Source of the DNA: Bacteroidales bacterium
GTDB taxonomy: Bacteria > Bacteroidota > Bacteroidia > Bacteroidales > Marinilabiliaceae
Assembly (NCBI GenBank): GCA_017417385.1
Contig: JAFPZF010000058.1
Coordinates: 1-64,000 of the forward strand
Length of the DNA: 64,000 nucleotides
Direction: 5' to 3'
Positions 31,988-64,000 of the stretch are shown here, one piece after another (position 1 is the first letter of the stretch; each line of letters starts with the position of its first letter). The translations under genes and the position numbers were made by a program. Under the pieces are notes generated by a model. That model had not been told where the DNA came from and made no database searches. It saw nothing but the letters and a program-made list of their open reading frames with translations.

Positions 31988-32021
31988 AAGGGAGCTTTCC
32001 GGGAGGGAGGCTCCCTTTTTT
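31988..32021 (+). terminator. Terminator of the susC/susD operon
   Basis: AAGGGAGC (31988-31995) pairs with GCTCCCTT (32010-32017), followed by further T residues. Confidence 0.85.
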
Positions 32022-32041
32022 AGGGGTGATAGAGAGAATAT

Positions 32042-32173
32042 GAGGTAGGTTGGAGGTAGGTTGGAGGTAGGTTGGAGGTAGGTTGGAGGTAGGTTGGAGG
32101 TAGGTTTGAGGTAGGTTTGAGATAGGTTCAAGGTAGGTTGGAGGTAGGTTCAAGGTAGCATCGAGGTAGGGGG
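32042..32173 (+). repeat. Tandem array of twelve 11-bp units, GAGGTAGGTTG
   Basis: Five identical units GAGGTAGGTTG are followed by seven degenerating ones (ending TTT, TTT, TTC, TTG, TTC, ATC, GGG). The array is strictly periodic at 11 bp for 132 bp and starts about 20 bp after the susD terminator. The period is not a multiple of three and no gene spans it. It is purine/T-only apart from a few C, and G-rich on the plus strand. Confidence 0.9.
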
Positions 32174-32267
32174 GATGAAGGTGTCGAGGAGCGGACGCAA
32201 TAAGCGTTTTGAAAGGGAGCAAGAAGAAGAAATATCGGTAGGAGCATGCAGTATGCTGAGTATTGTG

Positions 32268-32275
32268 TATATTTG
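32268..32275 (+). promoter_or_regulatory. -7 element TATATTTG before orphan gene
   Basis: TATATTTG matches TAnnTTTG, 65 bp before the start at 32340. A small palindrome GCATGCAGTATGC lies upstream at 32244-32256. Confidence 0.55.
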
Positions 32276-32339
32276 TATAACAAACAGAGAAACGGCTAAA
32301 AGGTCGAAATAGAAGAACAGCGAAAGAGCACATTAAACA

Positions 32340-32981
32340 ATGGGAGCAGGAAAGTATATAATAGCTATCATCGTCTTGTTCATAAAAATAGGAGTACTGA
32401 ATGCACAAGTCAGTGACTATTATACAGACAGTGTTGCATACGATTTGCTCAACAAGTGCATCAAAAAGCGCAGAGTCTACCCAAAATACAAGTATAAGAA
32501 AGACTATTTCAAAGACGTAAAACTGCACACAATACCGCTTTGCACCATAGTCAATGATAGTCTGCAAGTACTGCATGGAGTGACACCGTATTTAATAGTG
32601 ATTTCAAAAGACGATAAGTATGTAGGAGTCATAGATACGGACGACAAAGGCAATAGCTATATTGACGTCGATTTTAGATTTAAGTATATCTTAAAGATGT
32701 GGCCCATTTGGCGACTGATAGAATCTGGGGAGATATGGATATGCAATGTAGCAGGGATTAACGAGACTATAGTATTTACATATCATGACAACAAAATAAA
32801 GCGTCTGAATGTAGAAAAAATACCCGTAAATGACAGAGGAAGCGTCTCGATAGACTCATTTATCGAATATATCGAGGAGTATCAGTATCCGGAGCCGCTC
32901 TTATACAAGAAAGACGCGGACCAAAACAGTTGGTGGAAACTGCGAGAATACCTTAGGGAGCGGTCAATAGCATACGATTAG
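32340..32981 (+). CDS. Secreted hypothetical protein, AT-rich
   Basis: A 213-residue protein I do not recognise. It has a signal peptide (residues 1 to about 23, ending LNAQ), then a Lys/Tyr-rich region (YPKYKYKKDYFKD) and a beta-rich middle with a DDKYVGVIDTDDKGNSYIDVDF repeat-like stretch, and a Trp/Tyr-rich end. Codon use is clearly more A/T-rich than in the flanking susD and PASTA-protein genes, suggesting later acquisition. It has its own promoter element. Periplasmic or surface location is inferred from the signal peptide; function is unknown. Confidence 0.7.
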   Translation: MGAGKYIIAIIVLFIKIGVLNAQVSDYYTDSVAYDLLNKCIKKRRVYPKYKYKKDYFKDVKLHTIPLCTIVNDSLQVLHGVTPYLIVISKDDKYVGVIDTDDKGNSYIDVDFRFKYILKMWPIWRLIESGEIWICNVAGINETIVFTYHDNKIKRLNVEKIPVNDRGSVSIDSFIEYIEEYQYPEPLLYKKDADQNSWWKLREYLRERSIAYD

Positions 32982-33059
32982 GAGACAGTCGAAACGGCGT
33001 TGGTTGATGAGGAGACATACGTTGAATAGCAAGAATAAGCAGAATAGAAGATAGAGGAA

Positions 33060-33704
33060 ATGACAAAAGAGCAGATAGTCTTGGAGAGTGACGGGACGTC
33101 AGGAATGCCAAAGTTTTCGCTTGCGTATGGTGAGGGCTTGCACGTTTTTGCAAGTCGTCGTGAAGGCGATGGAGTGCAGTTCGTTGCAAATAATCGAGAA
33201 GAACTGCATTGTAGGAAAGAGCCAGTATGGGTGGAATGTGTCAGGAGGTACACGAGTGATGATATTTCGCTAATAAACAACAACATAGACGAGTTTAGGA
33301 GATATGGGTTGCTTACGTACATTAAAGGGAAAGTAAGGAAGGAAGATATGTATTGTCTGGAGTCTGGCGAGGTAAGGCTTTTGAACACGATCATGAGTAG
33401 ATTGAGGGGCGTTGATTTTATAGAGATAAACACAGCAGGTCTATGTCATGATAGCATAAGAAAGCTGTTGGATTACGTTTTGAGAGACATAAATCACAAT
33501 AAAGTTGCATACATCATTGTGACATACAGAGATGACATGGCGGGGGCTTGTGCCCCGATACAAATTTGCGAGAAAAGCATTCCTAAAGTGATAGACCTAA
33601 TCGAGAGAGTTCCGCAGAGCAATAGACAAGACGCAAAGGTAAGAAAACAGAGCAATACGATATTACATACATTCAGGAAACTGTTTTGGCGGGGAGGAAA
33701 ATAG
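33060..33704 (+). CDS. Hypothetical protein, no recognised domain
   Basis: A 214-residue, probably cytoplasmic protein with no signal peptide. The middle has a stretch FIEINTAGLCHDSIRKLL followed by a hydrophobic strand KVAYIIVTYRDD, and the C-terminus is basic (RKQSNTILHTFRKLFWRGGK). I cannot assign a family. It follows the secreted orphan gene by 78 bp in the same orientation and shares its AT-richer composition, so the two may form a small acquired unit. It ends just before a gene-poor stretch with degraded frames. Confidence 0.65.
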   Translation: MTKEQIVLESDGTSGMPKFSLAYGEGLHVFASRREGDGVQFVANNREELHCRKEPVWVECVRRYTSDDISLINNNIDEFRRYGLLTYIKGKVRKEDMYCLESGEVRLLNTIMSRLRGVDFIEINTAGLCHDSIRKLLDYVLRDINHNKVAYIIVTYRDDMAGACAPIQICEKSIPKVIDLIERVPQSNRQDAKVRKQSNTILHTFRKLFWRGGK

Positions 33705-34020
33705 AACGAAACGCGAATAGAGTTGCACAGGAGGGTGAGGAAGCGGAGAGGAATAGGAGGCGACTGGTTGACATAAGAGAGGGCGTGGGTAATACAAGAG
33801 TGACTGATGAAGTGCGGGCAGAAGGGACTTACAATGCAGGGATTCTTCAAGGAAGGGTTGATAGCCATAAGTCGCAAGTCATACGCAGGAACAGCCTTCC
33901 ACGCTCGTGGGGTCTACAACCGCGACATCAGCACGTTCGCGGAGGAGCAGAGTTTAGATTATAGTCTTTGCTTAATTTGCGGAAAATGTATAATTTCGCT
34001 TTGAGAAGAGTAATACGGAT
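33705..34020 (+). other. Gene-poor stretch with degraded coding sequence
   Basis: 316 bp without a convincing gene. Two overlapping plus-strand frames exist (33686-33964 and 33807-34004). The second reads MQGFFKEGLIAISRKSYAGT and has protein-like composition up to its stop at 34004, but no family is recognised and it is very short. It may be a remnant of a longer gene. Just before the next gene, TATAATTTCG with TTTG upstream could be its promoter. Confidence 0.35.
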
Positions 34021-55745: not shown

Positions 55746-57059
55746 ATGGCAAAAGAGTATTTCGCCAACATTGGCAAGATCAAGTATGAGGGTAAGGACA
55801 GCAAGAACCCTCTGGCATTCAGGTACTATGACGCGGAGAAGGTCGTCATGGGCAAGAAGATGAAGGACTGGCTGAAGTTCGCTATGGCATGGTGGCACAC
55901 ACTATGTGCGGAGGGTGCGGACCAGTTCGGCGGCGGGACCAAGACATTCCCGTGGAATGCGGCGAGCGACCCTATCCAGGCGGCGAAGGACAAGGTCGAT
56001 GCGGGATTTGAGATCATGCAGAAGCTCGGCATCGAGTATTACTGTTTTCATGACGTAGACCTCGTCTCGGAGGGGAGCAGTGTCGAGGAGTATGAGAAGA
56101 ACCTCAAGGAGGTCGTCGCTTACCTGAAGAAGAAGCAGTCGGAGACGGGCATCAAGCTGCTCTGGGGCACGGCGAACGTCTTCGGGAACAAGAGGTATAT
56201 GAACGGAGCGTCGACGAATCCCGACTTTGACGTTGTCGCGAGGGCGATAGTCCAGATCAAGAATGCCATAGACGCGACGATCGAGCTTGGGGGCACGAAC
56301 TACGTGTTCTGGGGTGGAAGGGAAGGCTACATGTCTCTCCTGAACACCGACATGAAGAGAGAGAAGAGCCACATGGCGACGATGCTGCGCATGGCGAGGG
56401 ACTATGCGAGGGCGAAGGGCTTCAAGGGCACATTCCTGATAGAGCCGAAGCCTATGGAGCCGAGCAAGCATCAGTATGACGTCGACACGGAGACCGTCAT
56501 CGGGTTCCTCAAGCAGAACGGGCTGGATAAGGACTTCAAGGTGAACATCGAGGTGAACCATGCGACACTTGCGGGTCATACGTTTGAGCATGAGCTGGCA
56601 GCGGCTGTCGATGCGGGGATGCTCGGGTCGATAGATGCGAACAGGGGCGACTATCAGAACGGGTGGGACACCGACCAGTTCCCGATAGACAACTTCGAGT
56701 TGACGCAGGCGTGGATGCAGATCATCAGGGGCGGCGGCTTCAAGGATGGCGGCACGAACTTCGATGCGAAGACGAGGAGGAACTCGACAGACCTGGAGGA
56801 CATCATCATAGCACACGTCAGTGGCATGGATGCTATGGCGAGGGCGCTCTTGAGTGCAGCGGAGCTGATAGAGAAGTCGCCATACTGCCAGATGGTGAAG
56901 GAGCGCTATGCGTCGTTTGACAGTGGAAAGGGCAAGGAGTTTGAGGACGGCAAGTTGACATTCGAGGAAGTCTATGAGTATGGCAAGAAGGTCGGCGAGC
57001 CGAAGCAGACGAGTGGTAAGCAGGAGCTATATGAGCAGATAGTCAGCATGTACTGCTAA
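55746..57059 (+). CDS. xylA: Xylose isomerase
   Basis: Converts D-xylose to D-xylulose. The 437-residue protein is the class II (long) type. Motifs: KFAMAWWHTLCAEGADQFG, the catalytic His region YYCFHDVDL, VFWGGREGY, EPKPMEPSKHQYD, NIEVNHATLAGHTFEHEL and the metal-binding DANRGDYQNGWDTDQFP. All catalytic and metal residues expected are present. The gene ends with a strong hairpin terminator. Bacteroidota xylose isomerases of this class are well known. Positioned as the last of gntR-xylB-xylA. Confidence 0.97.
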   Translation: MAKEYFANIGKIKYEGKDSKNPLAFRYYDAEKVVMGKKMKDWLKFAMAWWHTLCAEGADQFGGGTKTFPWNAASDPIQAAKDKVDAGFEIMQKLGIEYYCFHDVDLVSEGSSVEEYEKNLKEVVAYLKKKQSETGIKLLWGTANVFGNKRYMNGASTNPDFDVVARAIVQIKNAIDATIELGGTNYVFWGGREGYMSLLNTDMKREKSHMATMLRMARDYARAKGFKGTFLIEPKPMEPSKHQYDVDTETVIGFLKQNGLDKDFKVNIEVNHATLAGHTFEHELAAAVDAGMLGSIDANRGDYQNGWDTDQFPIDNFELTQAWMQIIRGGGFKDGGTNFDAKTRRNSTDLEDIIIAHVSGMDAMARALLSAAELIEKSPYCQMVKERYASFDSGKGKEFEDGKLTFEEVYEYGKKVGEPKQTSGKQELYEQIVSMYC

Positions 57060-57192: not shown

Positions 57193-59520
57193 TTAGAAAT
57201 TGAACGTATAAGTCAGAGTTGGCACGACTCGGTAGACGTAAATCATCTTGTATTTCTCGCTATAGATGCCACTTAGCGGGTCGGTGTACACGGAGATAGG
57301 ATTCTTCTTGTTGTAGACATTGTAGACCGTGAGATCCAAGAAATGGTTGAATCTGCCATGGCTACGGAGGTCGAAGCGCGCTGAGAAGTCGAGTCGGTGG
57401 AAAGTTGGCAGCTTGAAGCCGTTGCGTTCAGAGTAGACAGGGACGACGATGCCGTAGACCTCATAGCGTCCGATAGGGAGCGTACGTCTTCCGCCAGAAT
57501 GGCAGCCGAACGTTGTGGAGAGCGACAGCCAGCGCCAAGGTTTGACCATAGCGGCGACGCTGAGGTTGTGTCTCTGGTCGTACATGTCGTAGTACCAACG
57601 TCCTTTGTTGATACCGTCGACTTGACGTTTTGCTTCGGAGAGAGTGTAGGAGGTCGTTATCGAATAATTCTTAGCATCCTTTCGGATCATCAGTTCGATA
57701 CCCTTAGCCTTACCCTTTCCGGATAGCAGTTCCTGCTCGTAGTGTTCGTTCATTCTTAGGATGGCGCCGTCCTTGAAGTCGACGAGATCCTTAGTTTTCC
57801 TGAAGTAAGCCTCCATGCTGAGTTCGAGTTCGAGGGAAGGGATGAAGGAGTGGACACCGACGGCGAAGGAGTTGGCAGACTGCGGCTTAGCGTACTTGTC
57901 TGCGGGGATCCAGATGTCGGTTGGCATAGACAGTGCGGAGTTGGTCAGCAGGTGCTGACTTTGTGCAGTTCGGGAGTAGCTAGCCTTGAGGGACAGGTTC
58001 TCGCTGAGCGTGAGAGAGGCGGCGAGGCGAGGCTCAGCCAAGAAATAGCTTTTGACGGGTCTCAGTTTCTTATAGAGAACAGTGTCGAGAGGCGTCTCAC
58101 GCATCTTGTCGGCATAATTTATGCTTTCTACGGGACCCAGCTCCGTCGTCAGCGACATTCTCAGTCCGCCGCTGAAGTTGAGTAGACCGCCAAAGTTCTT
58201 CTCGACGCCGAAATAGAGAGCCTGGTTCGTCATATTCTTGCTGCCGAGGTCACGCGACTCTCCCGAGGAGACCTTGTCGAGAGGTTTCATCTTGCCGGGC
58301 CTATAGTGGTGGAACTCCGTGGAGAAGCCGTAGGTCAGTTCAGCCAGTTCCGTCGATTGCTGAAAATCGATCTTGGCATCGACCTCGCCCATTCTCGCGC
58401 GCCAGTCGTACATAAGTCCACCGGAGGAGTAGTTGTGCTTGTAGCCGTACTGACTTGCGGTAATCGTCGTATTAGCGAATATAGTCGGAGAAAAGACGTG
58501 ATTCCAGCGTCCGGTCAGCGTCCTGTTGCTCCACTTGATGTCGGCAGCGGCGTCGACAACGTCGTAGCGGAAGGCATCCTGGGACATATAAGCAGACAGG
58601 AAGACCCTGTCTCTATCGCCGACACGCTTGTTGATCTTCATAGCAATGTCGTCGAACAGAAGTTTGTTGTCGTGGTTGTACAGTTTGTCAGCAATGTCTA
58701 TGCACTTGTTGAAGAGCCAGCCGTAGCCAAAGCGTCCGCTGAGCATGAATGAAGATTTGTCGGTAGACAGAGGACCCTCGACCATAATACGGGAGGTGAG
58801 AATTCCCAAGGAGCCGCAGACCCTTTTTTCGGACATGTTGCCCTCCTTCATTCTTACGTCCATGACGGAAGTCAGTCTGCCACCATAGCGAACGGGCAGA
58901 GCGCCCTTGTAGAGGTCGACAGACGAGATGGCGTCTGCGCTGAAGGCAGATATAAAGCCCATGGCGTGCGTCGGGTTGTAGACGGGCGCCTCGTCGAGGA
59001 TGACGAGATTCTGGTCGTGCGAGCCGCCTCTCACCGAGAGGTTAGCGGAGCCGTCGGCGACATTGTTGACGCCGGGCATCAGTTGAAGACTCTTCAGTGC
59101 ATCAGGTTCGCCCATTATAGTCGCAATGCTTTTGATGTCGGCTTGAGAGACCTTATGGTGGCTCATCTGAGGGCGCTCTATTTCAGACCGGTACAGGCTC
59201 TTAGCCATAGCCGTCACCTCGCCAATAGTCTGAGTTGCAGGTTCGAGGGGCACCTTAAGAGCAGTTTTTTGAGAGGTGTCGATATGCAGGACTGCAGTCT
59301 TATATCCCAAAAAGCTGACGCGCAAGGTGTCGGCTCCGGTTGCACTCGCGATCGAGAAATAGCCGTAGGCGTTGGTCACTGTTGCGCGACGGCCAAATTG
59401 AGCCACAGCACCCATCAGGCTCTCTCCAGTCGCCCCGTCGACAACAGTTCCTGAGAGTTGAGAGAAAGCCCGAGTGGCGGACAATAAAGCTATAACTATT
59501 ACAAAGAATACCTTTTTCAT
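57193..59520 (-). CDS. TonB-dependent receptor, DUF4249-associated type
   Basis: Outer-membrane importer of 775 residues. It has a signal peptide (to about 20), a carboxypeptidase-like regulatory domain (LSGTVVDGATGESLMGAVAQ, 23-100), the plug (LMPGVNNVADGSANLSVRGG, then ILDEAPVYNPTHAMGFIS and VDLYKGALPVRYGG) and a 22-strand-type barrel ending in a Tyr/Phe-rich strand (LTYTFNF). This DEAPVYNP plug type is shorter than SusC and is commonly linked to DUF4249 proteins, as here. Its ATG overlaps the previous gene's stop as ATGA. Substrate is unknown. Confidence 0.9.
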   Translation of the reverse strand: MKKVFFVIVIALLSATRAFSQLSGTVVDGATGESLMGAVAQFGRRATVTNAYGYFSIASATGADTLRVSFLGYKTAVLHIDTSQKTALKVPLEPATQTIGEVTAMAKSLYRSEIERPQMSHHKVSQADIKSIATIMGEPDALKSLQLMPGVNNVADGSANLSVRGGSHDQNLVILDEAPVYNPTHAMGFISAFSADAISSVDLYKGALPVRYGGRLTSVMDVRMKEGNMSEKRVCGSLGILTSRIMVEGPLSTDKSSFMLSGRFGYGWLFNKCIDIADKLYNHDNKLLFDDIAMKINKRVGDRDRVFLSAYMSQDAFRYDVVDAAADIKWSNRTLTGRWNHVFSPTIFANTTITASQYGYKHNYSSGGLMYDWRARMGEVDAKIDFQQSTELAELTYGFSTEFHHYRPGKMKPLDKVSSGESRDLGSKNMTNQALYFGVEKNFGGLLNFSGGLRMSLTTELGPVESINYADKMRETPLDTVLYKKLRPVKSYFLAEPRLAASLTLSENLSLKASYSRTAQSQHLLTNSALSMPTDIWIPADKYAKPQSANSFAVGVHSFIPSLELELSMEAYFRKTKDLVDFKDGAILRMNEHYEQELLSGKGKAKGIELMIRKDAKNYSITTSYTLSEAKRQVDGINKGRWYYDMYDQRHNLSVAAMVKPWRWLSLSTTFGCHSGGRRTLPIGRYEVYGIVVPVYSERNGFKLPTFHRLDFSARFDLRSHGRFNHFLDLTVYNVYNKKNPISVYTDPLSGIYSEKYKMIYVYRVVPTLTYTFNF

Positions 59521-60548
59521 CTTCTCGTTGTTGTCATATTGTCTAAGTGCGAAATAATCACATTTTTCTCGTGACCTCTATAGACTTGACATCCGTTGAG
59601 CAGCACGACAGGAGTTTCCACGAAGCCAGCCTCCTTGGCCTTCAGATAGTATTTGTCAATCTCGTCGGCAATCACCTCGTTGTCAATCTCGTCGGCAAAC
59701 AGAGCCGAGTCGAGGCCGACAGCATCGACAAACACGCTCGTCATAGAGCTGTCAATTAAGACTGGGGCTCTCATTACCTCGTCAAGAGCCTCGCGAGCCA
59801 AGCCCTGTCTGCGAGCTGCCTCGACAGCCCGCACCGTGTAGTCAACAGAAGGAGCCAAGAGGAATACCCGACATTTTATCTGCGCATCATGAGAGCCGAC
59901 AATGTCTGCCAACATTCTGTACGCCTTGCGGCATACCTTGCATGTCGGGTCTGCCACGAGCAACAGTTCATCTGCTTCGGGATTGTATCTTTCCTCGTCG
60001 TTAATCAGCACACTTCGTTTTTCAATCCAGCCTGTCTCCACCTTCTTCTTGACAGGTGATAGTAACGCAGAACTAACCTTGTGTACCTTTCTTAGGGAGT
60101 CGATATAAGACCTATACAGAGATAGAGCAGTAAGACGTTTTAGCTCAGTAAAACCCTCACGGCTTCCTGTCCGGAGCATCTGTGACGGATTATCGCTACT
60201 TTGCAGCCAGTCGCCCACCATTTCCTCCTCTATATAGTTCGCAACATCCCTTTCCGTCAGTCGTTCGCGTAAGTATCTTGCCTTGAGAGTGTCAACCGTT
60301 ATGTGTCTTTTTTCAGCCTCAAGAGCAAGCACGTAACCTTCGGTAAAGTCGTCCAAGGCGTCTCGCCTGATGTCGTAGATCCTGCATAGGTGCTCGTAAA
60401 CCTCATCCACCTGTTCGTTGTTCAACACGAGGCTACTTGGAAACTGTTTTCCGTCAACCTCTAAGAAGCCGGTTTTATGCTCTATTTCATTACGGCAAGA
60501 CGCAGTTATTGCAATTACAATAGCTACAATAAGTAATTTGTGGCTCAT
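59517..60548 (-). CDS. Thioredoxin-fold (DsbA-like) lipoprotein
   Basis: A 343-residue protein with a lipoprotein signal (AIVIAITASCRNEI, lipid Cys near 18), an N-terminal helical region (about 40-180, Arg/Glu-rich, vaguely like SurA/parvulin-type N-domains) and a C-terminal Thioredoxin_4-like fold. The latter has the redox motif CKVC within LLLVADPTCKVCRKAY, and the cis-Pro loop ETPVVLLNGC. It would act on the outside of the inner membrane or at the outer membrane, oxidising or isomerising disulfides in neighbouring cysteine-rich proteins (inference). Its ATG overlaps the stop of the DUF4249-like frame upstream, and its stop overlaps the TonB receptor start. Confidence 0.75.
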   Translation of the reverse strand: MSHKLLIVAIVIAITASCRNEIEHKTGFLEVDGKQFPSSLVLNNEQVDEVYEHLCRIYDIRRDALDDFTEGYVLALEAEKRHITVDTLKARYLRERLTERDVANYIEEEMVGDWLQSSDNPSQMLRTGSREGFTELKRLTALSLYRSYIDSLRKVHKVSSALLSPVKKKVETGWIEKRSVLINDEERYNPEADELLLVADPTCKVCRKAYRMLADIVGSHDAQIKCRVFLLAPSVDYTVRAVEAARRQGLAREALDEVMRAPVLIDSSMTSVFVDAVGLDSALFADEIDNEVIADEIDKYYLKAKEAGFVETPVVLLNGCQVYRGHEKNVIISHLDNMTTTRR

Positions 60549-61397
60549 TCTTCTTCTATTATACCCCTCAATATTACAGCATCGGTTGCGAAGAACTGTC
60601 CGTATACAGACCTTTCGCTAGAGAAGTTAGTCGGGACCTCCTTGCTAAGACCGGCGAACACACCTCCGTCAGAGGCACACAACTTGTCCAGGGCAGAATA
60701 GAACTCATAGTTACTTTTCGACATTGAAGCAACAAGTATATCATAATAATGTTACCGTCACGTACAAATACTCCACCATTATCTGCTTGTCCGTGATGAC
60801 TCCAAACCCGTCTGATTTCACAACTGTATTTTCACCTTGACGAAACCCTTTTGTCGAGAAGTAAGTTGTTGACCAAGCAGTATGGAAATAGCAAAATGAC
60901 TCCTCGTCTGACTTATCATGAATAAAATGAATAGCTATCTTCGTCACTTCATTTCCTTCTTTGGATATGGTCGGGACTTCAGTTACTCTTGAAATCTTAG
61001 GGCAAGGGAGGACAGTCTCAGTCGCATAGTAGTGGCAACCCTCTATACATACGTCAAGAGTGTAAGTGCGTCCGACCACTGGCCAGCCTTTGCTCTTTAC
61101 CCATAGGGAATAGTGGTCCTCCCAGCCATTATTTGGCTTTTCGTATTTCCATCGACCACCTATATTGTCTGTGATAACAATACTGTCAACAGGTATTTCC
61201 CACATTTGAGGACCTCTGGTTTCATCTCCGATACCATTGAATATTTTGATTTTTTGCATTGTATCGCACGTAGACACAGTTGCCTCTATGACGTAAGCGT
61301 CGACAACGTCGCATGTCATATCGTCAAGAACGGAAATACAAGAAACACATATAAACAATAGTGGTAATAAGAGAGTCTTCCAGAGTCTTGTTACCAT
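60545..61397 (-). pseudogene. Frameshifted DUF4249-like lipoprotein gene
   Basis: The intact N-terminal frame (61397 down to 60741; 218 residues) starts MVTRLWKTLLLPLLFICVSC and follows the neighbouring DUF4249-like protein closely up to VVKSDGFGV, then ends early. The expected C-terminal half (MSKSNYEFYSALDKLC through AVILRGIIEEE) is present in another frame, with its stop overlapping the next start as ATGA. Comparison with the paralogue at 61412-62251 shows a 1-bp deletion just after GFGV and a 2-bp insertion about 70 bp later (net +1). It may be a pseudogene, phase-variable or a sequencing error. Confidence 0.8.
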
Positions 61398-61411
61398 ACT
61401 TAGATAAGTGT

Positions 61412-62251
61412 TTATTCTTCTATTTTACCAATCAGTATTACAGCATCAGTTGCGAAGAACTGTCCGTATACAGGTTTTTCGCTATAGAAGTTAGTCGGGA
61501 CCTCCTCGCTAAGACCGGCGAACACACCTCCGTCTGAGGCGCACAGTTTATCCAGGGCGGAATAGAACTCATAGTTACGTTTCGACATGGAAGCAACGCG
61601 TATGCGATAATAATATCCATCATCATAACGAATCTCATGCGTTCCTCCCTGTCCAGCTGGTTGTCCATGATGAACACCGAAACCATCTGATTTGACAACT
61701 ATGTTCTCACCTTGATTGAACCCTTTAGTCGAAAAGTAAGTTACTCTGCCAGCACTTGTGAAATAGCAAAACGATTCCTCATCAGAGTCATCATGAATAA
61801 AATGGACTGCTACTTTAGAGTCTTCAAACCCTTCTTTTGCCATTGTCGTAACTTCCGAAACTCTCGACACTTCAGGACATGGGTGAATAGTCTCGGTCGC
61901 ATAGTAGTGGCAGCCATCTATACATACGTCGAGAGTGTATGTGCGTCCAACGACTGGCCAGCCTATACTTTTGACCCATGCTGTATAGTGTTTTGACCAA
62001 AAGGGGCCTGGATTATTATATTTCCATCGCCCCCCTATGTCGTCTGTGATAACTACGCTGTCAACTAGCAATGCTCCTCGGTAACCATCAGCATCATAAA
62101 CATTGATTGTTTGTATGGTATCACATGTGGAAATGGTTGCCTCTATGACATAAGCGTCTACAGCATCGCACGTTTCGTCAAGTTCACCAATACAAGAAAC
62201 AAACAAAAACACAACAGGAAACAAAAGAGTCTTCCAGAGTCTTGTTACCAT
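61412..62251 (-). CDS. DUF4249-like surface lipoprotein, cysteine-rich
   Basis: A 279-residue lipoprotein (lipid Cys in FLFVSCIGEL, near 20). After TCDAVDAYVIEATISTCDT come beta strands typical of DUF4249 (VDSVVITDDIGG, YTLDVCIDGCHYYATETIHPCPEV), and the C-terminus reads SALDKLCASDGGVFAG with YGQFFATDAVILIG. Seven Cys besides the lipid one is unusual for Bacteroidota surface lipoproteins. DUF4249 proteins usually accompany TonB-dependent receptors of the type at 57193, suggesting a SusD-like lid or substrate-capture role (inference). It shares a 7-bp overlap with the preceding gene. The upstream paralogue to the left is frameshifted. Confidence 0.82.
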   Translation of the reverse strand: MVTRLWKTLLFPVVFLFVSCIGELDETCDAVDAYVIEATISTCDTIQTINVYDADGYRGALLVDSVVITDDIGGRWKYNNPGPFWSKHYTAWVKSIGWPVVGRTYTLDVCIDGCHYYATETIHPCPEVSRVSEVTTMAKEGFEDSKVAVHFIHDDSDEESFCYFTSAGRVTYFSTKGFNQGENIVVKSDGFGVHHGQPAGQGGTHEIRYDDGYYYRIRVASMSKRNYEFYSALDKLCASDGGVFAGLSEEVPTNFYSEKPVYGQFFATDAVILIGKIEE

Positions 62252-63282
62252 CTTTTGATTATAGAGAAGTGGAACAATGTGTTTTTATCCTGCTCAACCA
62301 TAGTCTTATAGTCTTCAATGTATTTGAAGTCGACAGATTGATTTTTCGTAATCAACACTTTAGGTGTACGGTCCAATAGTTTAGGGTTGTAGATATGCTG
62401 ATTGTTTGCGTTATTACGGTCCTCGTCATCTACGACTATGCCTTCGTACTGCATATCACGCAGTTTTCCAAACACAGCATATTCAAATCCAAGATCTGGC
62501 ATAGGACGTGCGTACTTTCCAGACTCAGCCATGAACACTAAGAAAGACAATCTCAAATTGCCTTTGTTGTTAATAACAATGTTAAAAGGAATTTTGCGTT
62601 TGTCATACCCTACAACCGATGTACATGGATTTTTATCCTCCGCATCCATTTCTATGTCCATGAACTTCAATTGGTGAAGCAACATATACTCTTCGATTTT
62701 CTCTGGGGTATTGTAATCTAATTGAATGTTCTCGTCCATAGCCAATACTGCATAATCATCATAGTAACGATGGAACAGAACCGAAGGAACTTCACAAAAA
62801 CGCATTGTCACATTATTGGATGACTCAGCCTTCCAATATATTTGGTCACCTTCAATGTGCTTTGAGCAATTATTATTATCCTCCGTGTCGTAAATTACCT
62901 CCACCAGAGTGTATCCTCCGCAGATTCGACCATCAGCGCTCCCAGGACTGTTTACTGGCACGACACCGACAGACGTGAATGTTCCTTCGTGTATCGAACG
63001 AAGCGCTGCCTTGTTGCCACCTTCCTTAAACTGCCAATAGTTCTTGGCGTATTCAATGTAGGCATCGGAAGCTATCGTCTCGGTCTTCGCCGTATCGTCG
63101 AGAGCGACACAATAAGTATCGTCATGCAGATACTTGTCAATCTCTTCGCCCTCCAATGTCGAGGCGAAATCTTCTGAGAGCTCCGCTATCTGTGTGTCCA
63201 TTGCGTCGTAGCAACTCTCTTCTTCTGCTGAGCAACCGCAAATAATGGTTGCTGCAAGAATAACAACTTTAACAGTCTTCAT
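62245..63282 (-). CDS. Cysteine-rich hypothetical lipoprotein, first gene of TonB operon
   Basis: A 345-residue lipoprotein of unknown family. The signal ends at ATIICGCSAEEESC, with the lipid Cys at 15 or 17. About six further cysteines are spread along the chain (ESCYDA, TYCVAL, GRICGG, NNNCSK, MRFCEV, NPCTS). The middle reads as a beta-rich, Asp/Asn-rich domain. It heads the operon behind a TAnnTTTG promoter and a dyad leader. It does not resemble DUF4249 or SusD closely. A role as an accessory surface-binding protein for the TonB receptor is inferred from the operon only. Confidence 0.72.
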   Translation of the reverse strand: MKTVKVVILAATIICGCSAEEESCYDAMDTQIAELSEDFASTLEGEEIDKYLHDDTYCVALDDTAKTETIASDAYIEYAKNYWQFKEGGNKAALRSIHEGTFTSVGVVPVNSPGSADGRICGGYTLVEVIYDTEDNNNCSKHIEGDQIYWKAESSNNVTMRFCEVPSVLFHRYYDDYAVLAMDENIQLDYNTPEKIEEYMLLHQLKFMDIEMDAEDKNPCTSVVGYDKRKIPFNIVINNKGNLRLSFLVFMAESGKYARPMPDLGFEYAVFGKLRDMQYEGIVVDDEDRNNANNQHIYNPKLLDRTPKVLITKNQSVDFKYIEDYKTMVEQDKNTLFHFSIIKRW

Positions 63283-63362: not shown

Positions 63363-63370
63363 CAAAGTTA
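63363..63370 (-). promoter_or_regulatory. -7 element TAACTTTG of the TonB/DUF4249 operon
   Basis: Minus-strand TAACTTTG matches TAnnTTTG exactly, 81 bp before the first start codon. No TTTG is evident at -33. Confidence 0.6.
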
Positions 63371-63716: not shown

Positions 63717-64000
63717 ATGGAAGTACAGTATTTCAGTCATGACTATAATGCGAGGCGGGACCGGAAGATGGTTCGTCTTCGACTACAGATGGGTTATGAA
63801 GGAGTCGGGATATTCTGGTCGATAGTAGAGTATCTGTATGAGAACGGTAACGAGTGTCGGCGGGAGGACGTTGACATCATGGCGGACGACCTACGAGTCG
63901 AGGAGGGGACTCTCAGGAGAGTCCTTGAGGAGTTTGGTCTCTTCGAGAGCGACGGGGAGCGGTATTGGTCGGAGAGTATAGCTCGGAGGCTTGAGGAGCG
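63717..64000 (+). CDS. DUF4373 (Lin1244/Lin1753-like) N-terminal domain protein, partial
   Basis: Open from ATG at 63717 to the window end (94 codons, incomplete). MEVQYFSHDYNARRDRKMVR with the following LRLQMGYEGVGIFWSIVEYLYENG closely matches the DUF4373 N-terminal domain of phage replisome-organiser-type proteins. Such genes occur in Bacteroidota prophages and mobile elements but also singly in chromosomes, so whether an element starts here cannot be judged. No integrase or attachment site is seen to its left. Confidence 0.8.
   Translation, partial: MEVQYFSHDYNARRDRKMVRLRLQMGYEGVGIFWSIVEYLYENGNECRREDVDIMADDLRVEEGTLRRVLEEFGLFESDGERYWSESIARRLEE

Follow-up and report, generated by a model that had tools for sequence, protein, structure and literature searches.

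A DUF4249/TonB receptor cluster in Bacteroidales encodes a DsbA-like lipoprotein alongside an exported cysteine protein, its possible client

Organization of the locus

The window analysed here (the whole stretch of 64,000 nucleotides) belongs to contig C12 in the assembly of a gut Bacteroidales bacterium, 3.6 Mb in size and 98.6% complete. Public genomes from the same genus or near it are metagenome assemblies, including some from sheep rumen and horse faeces. Between positions 57193 and 63282, the minus strand carries CYSLP, DUF4249a, DUF4249b, TRX and TBDT, in that order (Table 1). Since the flanking genes are convergent on one side (xylose-isomerase-like, 55746-57059) and divergent on the other (a Lin1244_N-domain gene starting at 63717), the cluster looks like a self-contained transcription unit. 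CYSLP and DUF4249a overlap by 7 bp, 14 bp separate DUF4249a from DUF4249b, and TRX and TBDT overlap by 4 bp. A promoter-motif match (TAACTTTG) precedes CYSLP; no TTG was found at -33 upstream of it, which makes this a weak promoter call. GC content is ~0.43 across 60-64 kb, the 5' part of the operon, compared to ~0.55 in most of the window. A separate stretch at 32001-34000, with a SusC/SusD-like pair on one side and housekeeping genes on the other, has a GC content of 0.43, strong GC skew and ORFs of unknown function.

Table 1. Features of the cluster and their coordinates in the window
Feature	Position	Strand	Description
CYSLP	62245..63282	-	exported lipoprotein, family without Pfam match
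DUF4249 copy a (DUF4249a)	61412..62251	-	PF14054, E=1.4e-10; putative lid of TonB receptor
DUF4249 copy b (DUF4249b)	60741..61397	-	tandem duplicate, frameshift-truncated
TRX	59517..60548	-	lipoprotein, putative SurA_N-like N-terminal domain and DsbA/ScsC-like domain
TBDT	57193..59520	-	CarbopepD_reg_2, plug and receptor barrel; DUF4249-partnered type
Promoter-motif match	63363..63370	-	Bacteroidetes TAnnTTTG, 80 bp upstream of CYSLP

An earlier note on this DNA had described five tightly packed genes. Four of them are intact and lie on the minus strand where they had been placed, but DUF4249b is broken. Its ORF encodes a product of 218 aa and stops at 60741, so that the actual gap before TRX is 192 bp; what remains of the DUF4249-like domain (...ASMSKSNYEFYSALDKLCASDGGVFAG...) is in a different frame and reaches the TRX start. 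The 4-bp overlap claimed for this junction therefore exists in the ancestral frame only, whereas the other three junctions are as described. Relative to DUF4249a (76% DNA identity), DUF4249b carries a 1-nt and a 10-nt deletion, and the frameshift may be an assembly error. A programmed frameshift was set aside because there are two separate indels. Within 60546-61397, the last ~160 nt of DUF4249b are 90% identical to DUF4249a, compared to 76% overall, which may reflect gene conversion.

Against the Pfam DUF4249 family, DUF4249a scored 41.7 bits (cut-off 28.5), while DUF4249b fell under the cut-off (2.2e-5). No Pfam family was found for CYSLP when the window protein and its relatives were scanned, and none of the cluster's five proteins matched a SusD family that would indicate a SusD/RagB-like partner. 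NCBIfam gave no useful match for the cluster proteins, and phmmer searches of the PDB gave marginal matches only. Beyond the lipobox, CYSLP has six and DUF4249a seven cysteines, as had been counted before. That DUF4249 adjoins such receptors had been taken as known. This agrees with the published account, in which this receptor subfamily almost always adjoins DUF4249 and BT2172 and BT2173 are proposed to work jointly (PMC11003636, citing Price et al. 2023); the pair in the cluster looks like an ordinary lid and transporter of the Bacteroidales. Likewise, the closest receptors in other genera nearly all adjoin DUF4249. The receptor family is present in 162 of 198 genomes of the order.

TRX is a DsbA-like lipoprotein with a long N-terminal extension

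The Pfam match of the window's TRX is weak on its own, and the SurA_N families do not match it. Among 17 TRX relatives, Thioredoxin_4 was matched in all, DSBA in 14, SurA_N_3 in nine and SurA_N_2 in seven; no TRX member scanned matched a parvulin PPIase/rotamase family. A structure model of TRX (pLDDT 88) gave 73 PDB matches at E<=0.001 and has a DsbA/ScsC fold (E 2e-6, Z ~15.8 to ScsC). The active-site features are CKVC (C203/C206) and Thr312-cisPro313. Together with the lipobox cysteine, C203, C206, T312 and P313 are invariant across 11 sequences of the genus; in a wider set P313 is conserved in at least 90%, one row having EEP. The earlier description of a thioredoxin-fold lipoprotein with CKVC and a cis-Pro loop is thus borne out. 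TRX also has an N-terminal extension of ~150 residues. Among DsbA-like proteins, a long N-terminal extension and a Thr before the cis-Pro mark isomerases, and isomerases of the DsbC type are kept reduced by DsbD (PMC6450060).

Searches of the window's own genome detected one DsbD_TM protein and no DsbB, VKOR or DSBA, while the same searches were positive in control genomes. Apart from the window's TRX, the only Thioredoxin_4 protein is a paralogue encoded in a second operon (L019), TlpA-type thioredoxin-fold proteins not being counted. With DsbD present and DsbB, VKOR or another DsbA-like protein undetected, TRX is more likely an isomerase or reductase than a primary oxidase.

Acidic residues following the lipid-bearing cysteine mark surface lipoproteins in Bacteroidetes (PMC5080379), and CYSLP has such an acidic stretch after its lipobox (CSAEEE). 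DUF4249 and CYSLP have an average charge of -1.5 after the lipobox and TRX one of +0.8 (P=3e-5), a contrast that is weakened, not created, by a wrong automatic choice of lipobox in a few rows; the value for the window's TRX is -1. As TRX relatives mostly lack the acidic export signal, TRX was modelled as periplasmic and, judging from sequence, it probably faces the periplasm. By analogy with established families, DUF4249 and CYSLP would be at the surface and TRX in the periplasm.

TRX recurs with the receptor and DUF4249, and most strictly with CYSLP

When 100 relatives were searched for TRX and the DNA around each match was read, matches were confined to the window's genus, where TRX lies beside TBDT and DUF4249 in 11 of 11 operons, the window's included. 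The window's own genome has a paralogous four-gene operon (L019), and one operon of the genus (L022) consists of TRX, DUF4249 and TBDT without an adjacent cysteine lipoprotein. A profile search detected TRX, full-length, split or contig-cut, in 12 of 393 genomes of the order. Clusters of TRX, TBDT and DUF4249 occur in other families at L070, L071, L073, L074, L077 and L081, and at L076, which is contig-cut. Gene order is shuffled between the TRX clusters of the Bacteroidales families, which argues for functional linkage. In support of the dedicated enzyme that the earlier note had supposed, the oxidoreductase is no chance neighbour of the receptor and DUF4249: it is kept beside them throughout the genus and recurs with them elsewhere. 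A contig scan returned four close relatives and one Chloroflexota locus. For that locus (L038, JAKOSR010000090.1, on a contig labelled as a Chloroflexota MAG), a weak TRX relative is reported. In a phylum-wide sample, TRX searches yielded mostly stand-alone DsbA domains, the matches listed from other genomes than the window's included no full-length TRX, and CYSLP was confined to the genome of the window.

Of 39 closest receptor loci, a few of them cut by contig ends, 38 are without TRX and the remaining one retains a fragment of it; DUF4249/TonB pairs free of TRX are therefore the rule. On the receptor tree, TRX linkage requires 4 changes, compared to 15.1 in shuffles, so linkage follows particular receptor lineages. 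At L127 (G147:C33), a TRX remnant of 93 aa has a receptor/DUF4249 pair on either side, the two pairs belonging to different clades, which suggests cluster decay.

CYSLP was detected in 7 of 393 genomes of the order, always clustered with a full-length or contig-cut TRX (hypergeometric P ~3e-12, a value that ignores phylogeny among genomes that are not fully independent). The CYSLP profile was built from TRX-linked copies, so that it could overlook members that are very distant and free of TRX. At L069 and L072, and at the contig-cut L079 and L080, CYSLP and TRX occur with no TBDT in view, and CYSLP is without a lipobox where checked. Type-9-secreted PKD proteins accompany them at L069, L072 and L080, and small outer-membrane-barrel-like proteins at L069 and L072. 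Clusters without CYSLP usually have another exported cysteine protein in its place, such as LP330, in which three C-terminal cysteine columns are conserved in five of five sequences. This cysteine-rich lipoprotein is encoded at L074 (5375-6834), L075, L076 and L081, three scanned members having no Pfam match; at L075, it is the only one of these partners found with TRX. A LytTR-type regulator adjoins LP330 at L074, L075 and L076 (Pfam-confirmed at L074). Sequence distances of TRX correlate with those of TBDT (r=0.85) and of CYSLP (r=0.82), and shared ancestry alone could produce both values. Overall, TRX's tightest partner is CYSLP, not DUF4249.

These distributions bear on two other readings of TRX. 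It could be a general envelope oxidoreductase of the cell, carried along with mere neighbours, as the two operon copies encode the only Thioredoxin_4/DsbA-type proteins detected in the genome and the low GC of the operon's 5' part (0.43 vs ~0.55) resembles acquired DNA. We consider this improbable, given that TRX is absent from most Bacteroidales, that it keeps the same company across families despite changes in gene order, and that CYSLP was never found without it. Alternatively, TRX might act on the imported substrate, a peptide or some other redox-active ligand, by reducing one of its disulfides after the receptor has delivered it to the periplasm. Its place next to TBDT in all operons of the genus, its periplasm-facing signal and the presence of DsbD without DsbB or VKOR would suit such a reductase. 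Secreted proteases, M12B-like (L070:5746-7125) and trypsin-like (L071:1155-2651), are encoded at the edges of the two TRX/CYSLP/TBDT/DUF4249 clusters of one genome, and these would fit peptide uptake. However, TRX and CYSLP occur without TBDT at L069, L072, L079 and L080, and the linkage of TRX to CYSLP is stricter than that to the receptor family. Reduction of the substrate thus seems unlikely, if not implausible.

Cysteine conservation points to CYSLP as the likely client

The earlier note had proposed that a private oxidoreductase forms or isomerises disulfides in the cluster's lipoproteins. This is not supported for DUF4249. Outside the lipobox, no cysteine column is common to more than 4 of the 19 TRX-linked DUF4249 proteins, so the cysteines are not conserved in the linked subgroup, and DUF4249 cysteines were ruled out as conserved targets. 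TRX-linked proteins have more cysteines than unlinked ones (DUF4249, P=2.5e-4; TBDT, P=1e-5), a difference confounded by lineage because unlinked pairs in the same genome, DUF4249 proteins among them, also carry cysteines.

Most receptors of the genus have a cysteine pair in adjacent barrel strands (YD.CAK...F.C), present in 9 of 11 (the TBDT of L020-L028, for example L026:8409-10649) and in 0 of 42 unlinked receptors. TRX could therefore serve mainly to fold the receptor, with this pair as its target. This also has little probability in our view, since the window's TBDT and its L019 paralogue keep TRX but lack the pair, and TRX is found in other genomes without any receptor.

In contrast to DUF4249, CYSLP retains two cysteines outside the lipobox, C121 and C163, in 14 of 14 aligned relatives, and it tracks TRX. 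The outcome that the earlier note had named as refuting its proposal thus applies to DUF4249 and not to CYSLP. A C121-C163 disulfide is a speculative assignment. The CYSLP structure model is poor (pLDDT 67), and a VIA structure search with it gave no match above Z 3.4. The best Foldseek hit, the APC-beta domain of T. gondii PLP1 (E=3e-3, prob 0.18, TM 0.13), was not used as an identification. CYSLP shows internal similarity that is strong between segments 1 and 2 (prob 90%, score 35 versus a shuffled maximum of 12) and weak between segments 1 and 3 (prob 12%, score 20 versus 13); a three-fold repeat was rejected, the score of segments 2 and 3 being an artefact of overlapping segments. A role of CYSLP in ligand binding is likewise speculative.

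CYSLP also carries repeated D-x-E-D motifs. Such acidic motifs, and the presence of ScsC among the folds closest to TRX, would fit a metal-import or -tolerance cassette in which TRX is a ScsC-like binder of copper or another metal; the ScsC of Caulobacter binds Cu(I) tightly (PMC8900818). Against this, reading the clusters revealed no metal P-type ATPase, no efflux gene and nothing recognisable as ScsA/B/D-like, and the TRX and CYSLP alignments show no conserved His-rich or Met-rich motif. We regard metal handling as very doubtful. With the DUF4249 columns unconserved, CYSLP tracking TRX and the window's TBDT lacking the cysteine pair, the likely client is CYSLP.

DISCUSSION

We propose, with about even confidence, that the cluster is an import cassette in which TRX, the co-encoded DsbA-like lipoprotein, folds the exported cysteine protein CYSLP. 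By analogy with established families, TBDT and DUF4249 would form the usual pore-and-lid pair. CYSLP would be a lipoprotein of the cell surface that probably assists by binding ligand and that needs the C121-C163 disulfide to fold. The SurA_N-like domain of TRX may hold the unfolded client while the DsbA/ScsC-like domain acts on its disulfide prior to export, either by forming it or, with greater likelihood, by isomerising it, with DsbD keeping TRX reduced. Once folded in the periplasm, the client would reach the surface by export and cooperate there with the receptor and the lid. We infer that CYSLP is the client, that TRX works in the isomerase direction and that CYSLP takes part in uptake. 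That TRX travels with CYSLP in distant relatives suggests that it is probably CYSLP's private folding helper; elsewhere, the clients of TRX are likely the substitute cysteine lipoproteins. A broader and more tentative hypothesis, to which we give less than even weight, is that CYSLP represents a novel family of binding proteins that are exported in receptor-based as well as type-9-secretion-associated settings. As a general DsbA/DsbB pathway would be missing from its hosts, the family would in every case come with a SurA_N-DsbA isomerase of its own.

Little of disulfide formation in the envelope of Bacteroidota has been charted so far. Where searches of a genome detect no DsbA/DsbB/VKOR pathway, as here, a cassette with its own DsbA-like foldase offers a defined enzyme-client pair to test. 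It also hints at the folding of surface lipoproteins before export in gut bacteria, and it extends the repertoire of TonB uptake systems by one new component.

A parallel for a folding factor of this kind may lie in Salmonella BcfH, which is encoded in a fimbrial operon. The TRX model matches BcfH (7jve) at Z 13.5, and in both cases a thioredoxin-fold folding factor is encoded with a surface structure that it possibly serves. They differ in that structure, fimbriae versus a TonB uptake cassette, and there is no sign of a recent common origin. Like ScsC and Wolbachia alpha-DsbA2 (PMC5524982, PMC6450060), TRX combines a DsbA-like domain, CxxC, Thr-cisPro and a long N-terminal extension. Unlike these proteins, it probably has, judging from the Pfam matches of its relatives, a SurA_N-like N-terminus and not a short trimer stalk, it is lipid-anchored, and it is encoded with an uptake system.

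The cluster shares with DUF4249/TonB pairs of the BT2172-BT2173 type (PMC11003636) the lid Pfam family, a receptor of CarbopepD_reg_2, plug and barrel, and the adjacency of their genes. In contrast to the cluster studied here, the pairs known so far come with neither a DsbA-like lipoprotein nor CYSLP encoded beside them. In Bacteroides, the BtuB-BtuG system and the TBDT/lipoprotein systems of iron piracy similarly combine a receptor with dedicated surface lipoproteins, but none of those described in the abstracts of these papers includes a co-encoded disulfide enzyme (PMC10404256, PMC13142918). Altogether, the cluster is real and conserved, and it is richer than an ordinary DUF4249/TonB pair while being built from parts of known kinds; its unusual part is the thioredoxin-fold lipoprotein TRX, and CYSLP is previously undescribed.
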